Below are positions 3,892 to 37,354 of a stretch of 60,824 nt of DNA, piece after piece. The translations under genes were made by a program, and so were the position numbers. Below the pieces are notes generated by a model. The model made no database searches and was not told the DNA's origin. It was given only the letters and a program-made list of their open reading frames with translations. This DNA is from Gemmatimonadota bacterium. Lineage in GTDB: Bacteria; Gemmatimonadota; Gemmatimonadetes; Gemmatimonadales; Gemmatimonadaceae. The stretch's first letter is position 1. Each line of letters begins with the position of its first letter. Location: positions 1 to 60,824 of the forward strand of contig VHBP01000006.1 in the NCBI GenBank assembly GCA_016871915.1, read 5' to 3'.

Positions 3892-3918
3892 TGGCAGAGG
3901 TCAGGTGACAGGTACCAG
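3891..3918 (+). repeat. Class B heptamer array, post-stop arm
   Basis: Directly after, and overlapping the last base of, the sigma-factor stop codon lie four seven-base units GTGGCAG, AGGTCAG, GTGACAG and GTACCAG. They are reverse complements of the CTGNCNC units that precede mlaF at 3999-4033, so the two arrays form the arms of a long imperfect inverted repeat enclosing the terminator. Confidence 0.55.
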
Positions 3919-3953
3919 AGGGCGGTCCGTTCGGACCGCCCTCTCTGTTTTCC
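3917..3953 (+). terminator. Rho-independent terminator of the sigma-factor gene
   Basis: AGAGGGCGGTCC (3917-3928) pairs perfectly with GGACCGCCCTCT (3933-3944) around a GTTC loop, followed by CTGTTTTCC. The 12-bp GC-rich stem plus T-run is a standard intrinsic terminator. Confidence 0.85.
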
Positions 3954-3998
3954 ACCCCTCGGTGACCGGTGCGGCGCCGTCCCCGCGCGACCATATTC

Positions 3999-4034
3999 CT
4001 GAGGTCTGGCCCCTGACACCTGGCCCCTGCCCCT
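3999..4034 (+). repeat. Class B heptamer array abutting the mlaF start
   Basis: Five units CTGAGGT, CTGGCCC, CTGACAC, CTGGCCC and CTGCCCC, then a single T, then the ATG at 4035. The same layout (units, one pyrimidine, ATG) precedes lemA, lpd and atpG. No purine-rich Shine-Dalgarno sequence is present. Confidence 0.6.
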
Positions 4035-6093: not shown

Positions 6094-6200
6094 GCTGAAG
6101 GCTGAAGGCTGAAAGCTGAAAGCTGAAAGCTGGAAGCTGGAAGCGTACGGCGGTGAGCTTTTCGCTGTAAGCTTCCAGCCTTGAGCCTTCAGCTGTCAGC
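6094..6200 (+). repeat. Class A heptamer inverted-repeat element upstream of atpA
   Basis: Seven units of GCTGAAG-type heptamers run from 6094 to 6142 (GCTGAAG x2, GCTGAAA x3, GCTGGAA x2). A central GCTTTTCGC lies at 6157-6165. Four inverted units (TTCCAGC, CTTGAGC, CTTCAGC, TGTCAGC) run from 6173 to 6200. The arms can pair into a long imperfect hairpin. Three further copies of this architecture occur at 7898, 21718 and 37244 (inverted strand). Confidence 0.7.
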
Positions 6201-6220: not shown

Positions 6221-6238
6221 TTGTGATTATTTTCACAA
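6221..6238. promoter_or_regulatory. CRP/FNR-type palindromic operator upstream of atpA
   Basis: TTGTGA-TTATTT-TCACAA is a perfect 6-bp-arm palindrome matching the TGTGA-N6-TCACA consensus of the CRP family. It lies 92 nt before the atpA ATG. A second perfect site is at 12662-12681. The regulator is not in the window. Confidence 0.6.
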
Positions 6239-6329
6239 GCTGTACCTGAACCGGCCGCTTCGCGTCGCGCCCCTCCGGCCGCCGCACCCGCGCGCCGACC
6301 TGACATCACCGCCTTTCCAAACTCCGCTC

Positions 6330-7897: not shown

Positions 7898-7977
7898 GCT
7901 GAAGGCTGAAGGCTGGAAGCTGAAAGCATCGCGCTTTTCGCTTTAAGCCTTCAGCCTCCAACCTCCAGCCTCGAACC
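7898..7977 (+). repeat. Class A heptamer element filling the atpA-atpG gap
   Basis: Starting 3 nt after the atpA stop region are GCTGAAG, GCTGAAG, GCTGGAA and GCTGAAA (7898-7925), the core GCTTTTCGC (7933-7941), and then TTCAGCC, TCCAACC, TCCAGCC and TCGAACC (7950-7977), ending exactly at the atpG ATG. The whole intergenic gap is the element. There is no Shine-Dalgarno sequence. Confidence 0.7.
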
Positions 7978-20963: not shown

Positions 20964-21722
20964 ATGGCCAAGGTGACGATCACGCAGGTCCAACTCATGC
21001 AGCGGCTCCAGGCGGCGCTCGCCGACGATCTGGTGGCGGTGGTGCTCTACGGCTCGGCGGCACGGCCCGCCGGTACGACGGGCAGTGTGACGAATGGGGC
21101 GGCCACTACGGGCGGGGCGGCTCCCTCGGGCGCACGGAACATCCTCGTGCTCGTGCGCACCCTGACCCCGAGCACGTTGCGGTCGGTGGCACGCACCACG
21201 CACGAATGGATCGCCGCCGGTCACCCCGCGCCGCTCATCATGACCGAGGGGGAGTGGCGCACGAGCCGCGACATCTTCGCGATCGAGGTCGCCGATATAC
21301 TCGAGCGGCATGAGGTGCTCGTCGGTGCGCTGCCGGCGGGTGTGGCCGGGGTCGATTCCGCCCATCTCCGCCATCAGCTCGAGTTCGAGACGATGGGGAA
21401 GCTCCTCGCGATCCGCCAGGGGATCCTCGCCGCTGATGGTGATCCCGCGCGCGAACTCCAGCTCCTCGCCGCGACCAAGTCCGCAGTGCTCGTCCTCTTC
21501 CGCACGCTCCTTCGGTTGCATGGCGAACCGATCCCGGCAGATGCCGCTGAGGTCGTGCGCCACGCCGCCGCACGCGTCGGCTTCGATCCTGTCCCGTTCC
21601 TTCGCGTGCTCGCGCATGTGGCGGGGACCGCGGCGATACCCACCGCTGAGGCCGACTCGACCCTGACGGGGTATCATCAGGGGATCGAGCGGTTCGTGAG
21701 TTACGTAGATGCTGGAGTCTGA
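20964..21722 (+). CDS. Degenerate nucleotidyltransferase-fold protein
   Basis: A 252-residue protein 2 nt after the TPM gene. Its N-terminus, ALADDLVAVVLYGSAARPAG, carries the GSxxR entry of nucleotidyltransferases (Pol-beta fold). After a Gly/Ala/Thr-rich insertion the expected metal-binding DxD strand reads ARNILVLVRTL, with no acidic pair. An alpha-helical C-terminus (LRHQLEFETMGKLLAIRQGI, RTLLRLHGEPIPADAAEVVR) follows, resembling the helical domain that accompanies such folds. It is probably catalytically inactive. Its stop codon lies inside the heptamer element that precedes lemA. Confidence 0.55.
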   Translation: MAKVTITQVQLMQRLQAALADDLVAVVLYGSAARPAGTTGSVTNGAATTGGAAPSGARNILVLVRTLTPSTLRSVARTTHEWIAAGHPAPLIMTEGEWRTSRDIFAIEVADILERHEVLVGALPAGVAGVDSAHLRHQLEFETMGKLLAIRQGILAADGDPARELQLLAATKSAVLVLFRTLLRLHGEPIPADAAEVVRHAAARVGFDPVPFLRVLAHVAGTAAIPTAEADSTLTGYHQGIERFVSYVDAGV

Positions 21723-21795
21723 AGGCTAAAAGCTGAAAGCTGAAAGCTTAAACCACCTGCTTTTCGCTTCTAGCTTTCAGCTTTCAGCCTTCAGC
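21718..21795 (+). repeat. Class A heptamer element between the NTase-like gene and lemA
   Basis: The units CTGAAG (overlapping the TGA stop at 21720-21722), GCTAAAA, GCTGAAA and GCTGAAA reach 21745. The core GCTTTTCGC is at 21759-21767, and TTCTAGC, TTTCAGC, TTTCAGC and CTTCAGC run from 21768 to 21795. A class B array follows at once. Confidence 0.7.
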
Positions 21796-21803
21796 TTATT
21801 GCC

Positions 21804-21839
21804 CTGTCCCATGACCCCTCTCCCCTGAGACCTGACCCT
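21804..21839 (+). repeat. Class B heptamer array abutting the lemA start
   Basis: CTGTCCC, ATGACCC, CTCTCCC, CTGAGAC and CTGACCC, then T, then the lemA ATG at 21840. This is the one gap where class A and class B lie in series. No Shine-Dalgarno is visible. Confidence 0.6.
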
Positions 21840-33933: not shown

Positions 33934-33962
33934 GGTGTCAGGGACCAGGGGTCAGAGGTCAG
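33934..33962 (-). repeat. Class B heptamer array filling the pdhC-lpd gap
   Basis: Read on the minus strand: CTGACCT, CTGACCC, CTGGTCC, CTGACAC, C, then the lpd ATG. The pdhC stop TGA (33959-33961) is inside the first unit. The phase relative to ATG (units, one pyrimidine, ATG) equals that before mlaF and lemA. Confidence 0.65.
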
Positions 33963-35233
33963 AACGACAGCAACAGAGGGTTCTCGATCAGGCGGCGCAG
34001 CGTCTGCAGGAAGGCGGCGCCGACGGCGCCATCGACGGCGCGATGATCGCAGCTCATCGTGACGCGGAGGCGGGGCTGGACGGTGAAGCCACCGTCTGGA
34101 CCGACGACGACCTTGTCCTCGATCGCCCCGATGGCGAGGATCCCGACCTCGGGGGGATTGATGATCGCGGTGAACTGATCGATCTGCATCATCCCGAGGT
34201 TCGAGACGGAGAAGCTGGACCCCGTGAACTCCTCAGGCTTGAGCTTCCGTTCCCGCGCCTTCTTGGCGAGGGCCTTGGCCTCGGCCGAGATCGCGCGCAG
34301 CCCCTTCTGGTCGGCATCAAAGATCACGGGGACGATCAGTCCGTCGTCGGTGGCGACCGCCATCCCGAGATGTACGCTACCGAAGCGCCGGATCCGATCG
34401 CCGAGCCAGTGCGCATTCACGTCGGGGTGCTGCGTGAGGGCGGTGGCGACGGCCTTCAGGATCACATCGTTGAACGAGACCTTGAACGCATCGCCGATCG
34501 CGAGCGCCGCGGTGCGCATCTCGGCGACGCGCGAGAGGTCGAACTCAGCGGTGAGATAGAAGGTCGGGATCGGCCCGATCGACTCGCTGAGGCGCTTGGC
34601 GATCGTCTTGCGGATCTGCGTGAGCGGGATGTCCTCGAACGCTTCGCCGGTGCGGACGGGGGCGGAGGCACGAGCCGGCGCTGCGGGCGAGGATGCCACG
34701 GGGCCGCGCGCGAGCGCGGCCTCGATGTCGCGCTTCACGATGCGGCCACCGGGGCCAGAGCCTTGGACCGCCCCGAGGCTCACGCCCGACTCGTCGGCGA
34801 GACGCCGCGCGAGGGGGGAGACGAGGGCGCGGCCGGCGGGGGTCGCAGGCGCAGCCGGAGCTGCCGGGGCCGCTGCACGCGGGGCAGGGGCCGCCGGCAC
34901 GCTCGGTGTGGCCACCGCTGGGGCACTCGCCGCAGGAGCCGCGCTGGTCGCCCCGCCGGGGGCCGCACCGCCGAGCAACGCGGCAATGTCCTCGTCCGCC
35001 GCCGCGATGATCCCCACGAGCGTGCCGACCGCCGCGGTGGTCCCCGCCGCGACGACCTGCTTGCGCAGCACCCCATCGCCGCGCGCCGTGAGCTCCATCA
35101 CCGCCTTGTCGGTCTCGACCTCGGCCAAGACCTCGCCGCTCTTCACGGCATCGCCTTCCTGCTTGAGCCACGTGACGAGGCGCCCTTCCTCCATCGTGGG
35201 GCTCAACGCCTCCATGAACACTTTGGTCGCCAT
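33959..35233 (-). CDS. pdhC: Pyruvate dehydrogenase E2 (dihydrolipoamide acetyltransferase)
   Basis: A 424-residue core enzyme from ATG 35231-35233. The order is one lipoyl domain with the lipoylated Lys43 in EVETDKAVMEL, an Ala/Pro linker (~85-135), a peripheral-subunit-binding domain (VSPLARRLADESGVSLGAVQGSGPGGRIVKRDI), a second Ala/Pro linker, then the acyltransferase domain with the DHRxxDG motif in MSCDHRAVDGAVGA. A single lipoyl domain matches PDH E2 of mitochondria-like and many bacterial complexes. It transfers acetyl to CoA. It is 8 nt from pdhB upstream, and its stop lies in a heptamer array. Confidence 0.95.
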   Translation of the reverse strand: MATKVFMEALSPTMEEGRLVTWLKQEGDAVKSGEVLAEVETDKAVMELTARGDGVLRKQVVAAGTTAAVGTLVGIIAAADEDIAALLGGAAPGGATSAAPAASAPAVATPSVPAAPAPRAAAPAAPAAPATPAGRALVSPLARRLADESGVSLGAVQGSGPGGRIVKRDIEAALARGPVASSPAAPARASAPVRTGEAFEDIPLTQIRKTIAKRLSESIGPIPTFYLTAEFDLSRVAEMRTAALAIGDAFKVSFNDVILKAVATALTQHPDVNAHWLGDRIRRFGSVHLGMAVATDDGLIVPVIFDADQKGLRAISAEAKALAKKARERKLKPEEFTGSSFSVSNLGMMQIDQFTAIINPPEVGILAIGAIEDKVVVGPDGGFTVQPRLRVTMSCDHRAVDGAVGAAFLQTLRRLIENPLLLSF

Positions 35234-37243: not shown

Positions 37244-37354
37244 GCTGAAGGCTGAAGGCTCAAGGCTCAAGGCTGAAGGCGAAAAGCAAAAAAGCTCGTA
37301 GCTGGATGGGAGTGGCTGGGTGGGCATTCCGCCTCCAGCCTTCCGCCTTCAGCT
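37244..37354 (-). repeat. Class A heptamer element between lipA and pdhA
   Basis: Read on the minus strand, units AGCTGAA, GGCGGAA, GGCTGGA, GGCGGAA (37354-37327) come first and contain the lipA TGA stop. After a longer loop comes the core GCTTTTCGC (37287-37279), then CTTCAGC, CTTGAGC, CTTGAGC, CTTCAGC, CTTCAGC (37278-37244), ending 5 nt before the pdhA ATG. Orientation relative to transcription is the same as at 6094, 7898 and 21718. Confidence 0.7.

Follow-up and report, generated by a model that had tools for sequence, protein, structure and literature searches.

Degenerate seven-base tandem arrays, usually facing, in the intergenic gaps of a freshwater Gemmatimonadota bacterium

Arrays of a degenerate heptamer, GCTNRAR, lie in intergenic gaps of a freshwater Gemmatimonadota bacterium. 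Their arms face each other and evolve independently. The arrays are present in one species and mostly absent from its sister, the unit family at one gap differs between species, and the same architecture occurs in multiple phyla. With moderate confidence, we read them as a dispersing repeat of gene borders, consisting of degenerate seven-base tandem arrays in gaps, usually facing, with constraint at the level of the unit. The window analysed here is a whole stretch of 60,824 nucleotides, contig C6 of a 2.07 Mb genome in 120 contigs (G000). Direct reading of the window gave facing arrays at 6094-6200, 7898-7976, 21711-21795 and 37244-37353, each with two GCTNRAR arrays that face each other across a short centre:

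6094-6142, plus strand: 5' arm, seven GCTGRAR units (direct reading, repeat scan).
6159-6200, minus strand: 3' arm, six units, from outer to inner GCTGACA, GCTGAAG, GCTCAAG, GCTGGAA, GCTTACA and GCGAAAA.
6157-6165, plus strand: the GCTTTTCGC 'core', a variant unit at the inner end of the 3' arm.
7898-7925, plus strand: 5' arm, four units, in the atpA-atpG gap (flanking genes by Pfam).
7928-7976, minus strand: 3' arm in the atpA-atpG gap, with core at 7933-7941.
21711-21752, plus strand: 5' arm ahead of a LemA-family gene (gene by Pfam).
21759-21795, minus strand: 3' arm ahead of the LemA-family gene, with core at 21759-21767.
37244-37292, plus strand: arm adjoining the start of a pdhA-like E1 gene, which is on the minus strand (Pfam).
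37279-37287, minus strand: core in the pdhA-side arm, part of 37244-37292.
37326-37353, minus strand: arm past the stop of a lipA-like gene, which is on the minus strand (Pfam).

The original prediction had described mirrored seven-base arms at 6094-6200, with the same plan at 7898, 21718 and 37244. Facing arrays were seen at all four places. The seven 5' units at the first locus were confirmed, but its 3' arm held six units instead of four, so the counts differ between arms. The exact seven-base period was also borne out. In TRF and a period scan, period 7 was the clearest intergenic-only array period in the window (four arrays, 4/4 intergenic); the multiples 14, 21 and 28 picked up the same four arrays, and neighbouring periods gave almost none in intergenic DNA. 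Two genes end inside an array: the stop codon of the gene upstream of the 21711-21752 arm is the TGA of a unit TCTGAAG, and the TGA of the lipA-like gene (37351-37349) falls within a GCTGAAG unit. Rfam at the gathering score found only tRNAs in the window and no match for the arrays. Five tRNA genes are located on the minus strand at about 616-814 and 2548-2860. A palindrome, TTGTGATTATTTTCACAA, lies at 6222-6240 upstream of atpA and is kept almost unchanged in those genus genomes that were examined; it resembles a CRP/FNR-type operator.

The sequence GCTTTTCGC occurs exactly four times in the window, always within the four elements, against 0.40 expected. It had been taken for a conserved core shared by all elements. 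It is the variant unit GCGAAAA on the other strand, innermost in the 3' arm; only about 8 of the 34 elements listed genome-wide have it. The constant orientation relative to transcription, which had also been pointed out, mostly follows from inverted symmetry because a facing pair reads identically on both strands; the core alone breaks the symmetry.

The whole genome was scanned with a 21-mer probe of three units, allowing up to three mismatches. The probe matched 143 times and its reversed control 0 times. Merging the first 100 of the 143 matches gave at least 34 arrays, a list in which a few weak arrays may be absent and in which L056 and L059, at contig ends, count as two but appear to be one element. 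Decayed arrays are under-counted because unit detection demanded near-consensus units. Of the arrays listed, 33/34 lie outside genes as placed by a simple codon-usage gene caller (binomial P = 3e-33; 9.3% of the window is intergenic). The expected further copies were thus found, and their placement, tabulated against stop codons and gap type, was not random. The claim that the flanking genes are always co-oriented held within the window but failed genome-wide, where the arrays listed occupy about 16 co-oriented, 8 convergent and 6 divergent gaps. In about two thirds of the arrays listed, an arm and a stop codon are separated by about 20 nt or less, and the TGA of a GCTGAAG unit is the stop codon of several genes. 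All two-armed elements of this type (family A) run plus then minus, that is, facing, and one-armed arrays are common in G000.

Unit composition was tallied over 52 arms holding 226 units. Positions 1, 2 and 6 deviated in at most 1% of units and T stood at position 3 in 96%, a fixity owed partly to unit detection, though the criterion allowed single deviations. At position 4 G prevailed (73%); position 5 held A or G, and position 7 held G or A. The A unit is therefore GCTNRAR, with positions 1, 2, 3 and 6 fixed and 4, 5 and 7 variable. The strictly kept positions suggest a function or a recognising enzyme. Position 7 also showed a gradient, with G in outer units and A in inner units, which was reached by 0/5000 permutations and is not explained by neutral slippage. 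Identical neighbouring units were in no excess over the expectation from arm composition, and therefore recent slippage is not evident in G000 and was dropped as an explanation there.

The two arms of one element did not resemble each other more closely than arms drawn from different elements, indicating that they evolve independently. Among 23 two-armed elements of G000, facing units agreed at variable positions at 0.574, versus 0.597 when arms were dealt among elements (p=0.84). Best-shift alignment of the arms gave p=0.90, as did pairing that counted G-U, with a power of 0.83 if 20% of units had co-evolved. In Stutzerimonas kirkiae, 20 two-armed elements gave p=0.40 for arm agreement, and the unit numbers of the arms did not match (2 vs 13 in one element and 2 vs 6 in another). 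No compensatory changes between arms were found in either genome, and RNA covariation was rejected.

These tests do not support the proposal, made originally for translation control or mRNA processing, that the arrays act as RNA hairpins. A hairpin that stabilises or processes intercistronic mRNA, with a REP-like function, agrees with the strong predicted folding (z -3.3 to -7.7) and with the placement of arrays against stop codons. It conflicts with the missing covariation at adequate power, the unmatched arm lengths, the arrays in divergent gaps and the array-free operons of sister species; in the two nearest genomes, G028 and G385, the atpA-atpG gap is a 12-mer without a hairpin. At the four window loci, no terminator-like site (GC hairpin plus U-run) was found, which also ruled out an intrinsic terminator. 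We give this mRNA role little chance. A selected RNA hairpin is unlikely, and the genus data speak against conserved RNA switches. The predicted hairpins are strong because the consensus faces itself; the hairpin would not be what selection acts on but would follow from the facing polarity.

Presence and absence of arrays were compared within a genus sample of 17 genomes. The nearest genome, G028, shares 98% AtpA identity and about 92% DNA identity with G000; for the next, G385, the values are 97% and about 88%. At 16 of 17 testable loci the array was absent in G028, two of the 16 retaining a two-unit stub, and the remaining locus (L043) carried a degraded array. The G028 gaps at the tested loci were mostly 4-37 bp of unrelated sequence. 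G385 had no array at 10 of 14 loci, an A-type array at two and a B-type array at two. The data are most simply read as gain along the branch to G000, since G385, as outgroup, was also array-free at at least 7 of the loci empty in G028; this direction rests on parsimony with few genomes. Going by these comparisons, the arrays look young.

A clean insertion was observed at L040:10504, where both flanks of the empty site AAAGATA/CTACATT are kept in the filled site. No target-site duplication was recognised there by eye, and most other sites drop the old gap sequence. The longest pairwise alignments of A elements within G000 gave none above about 82% identity, and plain copy-and-paste of a master element is therefore not seen. 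The main puzzle is that the arrays are recent, yet are not copies and are constrained per unit. The differences between sisters and the clean insertion fit a classical MITE, whose terminal inverted repeats let a transposase mobilise it in trans, and some S. kirkiae copies share sequence outside the heptamers (by eye). Yet the G000 arrays have no conserved interior and no near-identical copies, their one-armed forms are common, and the clean insertion has no duplication that the eye could recognise. A MITE is an improbable explanation. REP/BIME elements with their RAYT are likewise extragenic inverted repeats near stop codons, but seven-base tandem units are no REP feature. The RAYT Y1 transposase (PF01797) was found in 0/17 genus genomes, with positive controls found, and REP/RAYT was ruled out.

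A dispersing border repeat remains our preferred reading. The suggestion of a mobile repeat family was supported by the presence and absence of arrays at orthologous sister gaps and by their recurrence across phyla. Most of the arrays would be intergenic repeats of a selfish or neutral kind, spreading through insertion or templated repeat addition, after which slippage would alter the unit number. A reader of the seven-base unit, either a DNA-processing enzyme or a binding protein, may preserve the fixed positions, and selection would purge array insertions from genes. Arrays would end against stop codons because many gaps are short and genic insertions are removed, and because many units hold TGA, TAA or TAG and soon end a reading frame.

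Other heptamer families were found at the same gaps. The atpA-atpG gap is about 12 bp without an array in G028, G385 and G188; its arms are GCTGAAG in G000, CAGGTGA/CCCTGAY in G248, GGATGAA in G205, GGACGAA in G004 and GACGGAT in G073. G004 and G205 have the centre AGAGGCGnGGCCGTACGGCCnCGC in common between arms of different unit. The arms at the lipA-pdhA gap are A-type in G000 but B-type in G248 and G290. Between the latter two, the centre and right arm of the B element are identical, and the left arms diverge at several variable positions and in their number of units. By-eye alignment suggests that the G000 centre at this gap is related to that of G248/G290. Family B (CAGGKNY) has 32-160 matches in each of G000, G028, G248, G290 and G385 and 0 in the other 12 genus genomes. 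The following B-family features are in the window:

3895-4029, in the region 3892-4034, no strand assigned: facing arms flanked by genes for a sigma-70 factor and an ABC transporter.
3917-3944: terminator-like hairpin between those arms.
33934-33963, plus strand: single array that fills the gap separating two pdh-cluster genes.
21802-21839, minus strand: C-rich array ahead of the LemA gene, common to G028.

The pdh-cluster gap at 33934-33958 is B-type, with about 25 to 87 nt, in G000, G028, G248 and G290, and GGATGRA-type in G205. B-family elements were facing in 10/11 cases. The purine-rich strand pointed away from the nearest ORF border in 21/35 B arrays, which was not significant.

The best rival to a border repeat is a protein-binding role. 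Each heptamer would be bound, as DNA or RNA, by a host protein such as a nucleoid, mRNA-end or translation factor, and the lineage-specific units would mirror the shifting specificity of that protein. Fixed and variable positions in the unit, independent arms and the change of unit family between species at one gap all fit this role, and similar proposals have been made for TAACTGA arrays (PMC4679880) and Geobacter hepta-/octamers (PMC2700814). Against it, array sites are not kept between species with 92% identity, sister operons are array-free, the window genes flanking the arrays have unrelated functions (Pfam), and no candidate protein was found in a search that covered PF01797 alone. We consider protein binding possible but doubtful.

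Outside the genus, at least one probe match was found in 33/395 genomes of the phylum, often as a GCTGAYG variant; matches were abundant only in close relatives and a few members of the same order. The exact facing-pair pattern occurred in at least 105 stretches among about 85,000 species genomes; chance matches were estimated from the information content of the pattern at well below one. The matches listed include Pseudomonas, Stutzerimonas, Azomonas, Desulfobacterales, Omnitrophota, Armatimonadota, Leptolyngbya, Mucilaginibacter, Pedobacter, Phycisphaerales, Verrucomicrobia, Acidobacteria, Nitrospinota, Chloroflexaceae, Clostridia and Gemmatimonadetes; Desulfobacterota, Bacteroidota and Acidobacteriota are also among the phyla with facing GCTNRAR elements. 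Two loci from Gemmatimonadetes genomes, L193 and L141, come with AtpA 95% and 97% identical to that of the window, which puts the window genome in Gemmatimonadota. For 80 pan-bacterial loci, stop-to-stop frames overstate the 'inside ORF' class, and the location count was set aside. Only one viral contig carried the pattern, and phage carriage was rejected.

S. kirkiae (G399) had 169 probe matches. A run of 12 identical units makes recent slippage evident there. The GCTGGAG arrays at its loci L241-L290 have CGAAAAGC/GCTTTTTCG as the inner motif and CGAYAARAGC/GCTTTTATCG as the outer one, and the inner motif resembles the GCTTTTCGC 'core' of G000. In a by-eye comparison, some of these copies were more MITE-like than those of G000.

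The original prediction knew of no named element of this kind, which was right only in part. Exact-sequence searches of open-licence PMC papers found no description of the GCTNRAR element, but Xanthomonas has convergent intergenic heptamer pairs (PMC4692102), and paired tandem hepta-/octamers have been described for Geobacter metallireducens (PMC2700814). The Xanthomonas convergent arrays are the closest known kind. Rehm et al. 2015 described GGGAATC arrays in Xanthomonas and GGGGA(C/T)T arrays in Nostoc (PMC4692102). The Xanthomonas unit is a degenerate GGGANTN with fixed and variable positions; arrays have mostly four units, are about 90% intergenic and near the 5' ORF, form 70-75 convergent pairs per genome and vary in length and sequence between close species (PMC4692102). 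That paper also cites earlier work for heptamer over-representation and Calothrix heptanucleotides. The G000 arrays likewise have fixed and variable unit positions, 33/34 listed intergenic and facing pairs. Unlike GGGAATC, GCTNRAR has no GGG tract and therefore no G-quadruplex logic. The positional gradient, the presence and absence in a close sister, the unit families differing at one gap of the genus and the test of arm independence go beyond the Xanthomonas description. GCTNRAR arrays are thus built and work like the Xanthomonas arrays, yet are not the same repeat.

In Geobacter metallireducens, paired tandem hepta-/octanucleotides (units such as MTYCTGA) on opposite strands with variable spacing were called 'predicted global regulator binding sites', with IHF/HU sites suggested without a test, and a sister species has a different conserved sequence in the proBA gap (PMC2700814). 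The opposite-strand pairing of tandem 7-mers and the different sequence at the same gap in a sister are alike in G000, but the units differ and the Geobacter copies are fewer. TAACTGA heptamers form intergenic arrays in Beggiatoaceae, cyanobacteria and Bacteroidetes; the near-invariant unit is repeated directly, with a single inversion among 170 cases, and mostly points to start codons (PMC4679880). Both kinds are intergenic heptamer arrays that recur in unrelated phyla, but GCTNRAR is a degenerate unit with facing arms. The STRR of cyanobacteria are intergenic tandem heptanucleotides, alike by description only.

An excess of heptamers in the intergenic DNA of bacteria has come up time and again (Xanthomonas, Nostoc, Geobacter, Beggiatoa), with no mechanism attached to it. 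The genus supplies what earlier studies lacked, namely matched filled and empty sister sites, differing families per gap and independent arms, and the nature of bacterial heptamer arrays becomes a testable question. It is conceivable, though rather unlikely, that one widespread unrecognised machinery writes degenerate seven-base units (GCTNRAR, CAGGKNY, GGATGAA, GACGGAT and the Xanthomonas GGGANTN) into gene borders from a lineage-specific template. New arrays would then not be copies, arms would be independent, and a lineage might switch its unit and keep the site.

A separate observation concerns the reversed control, three RAAGTCG units, which had 34 matches in G105, a genome from the family of the window genome. 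RAAGTCG is probably another lineage-specific heptamer there.
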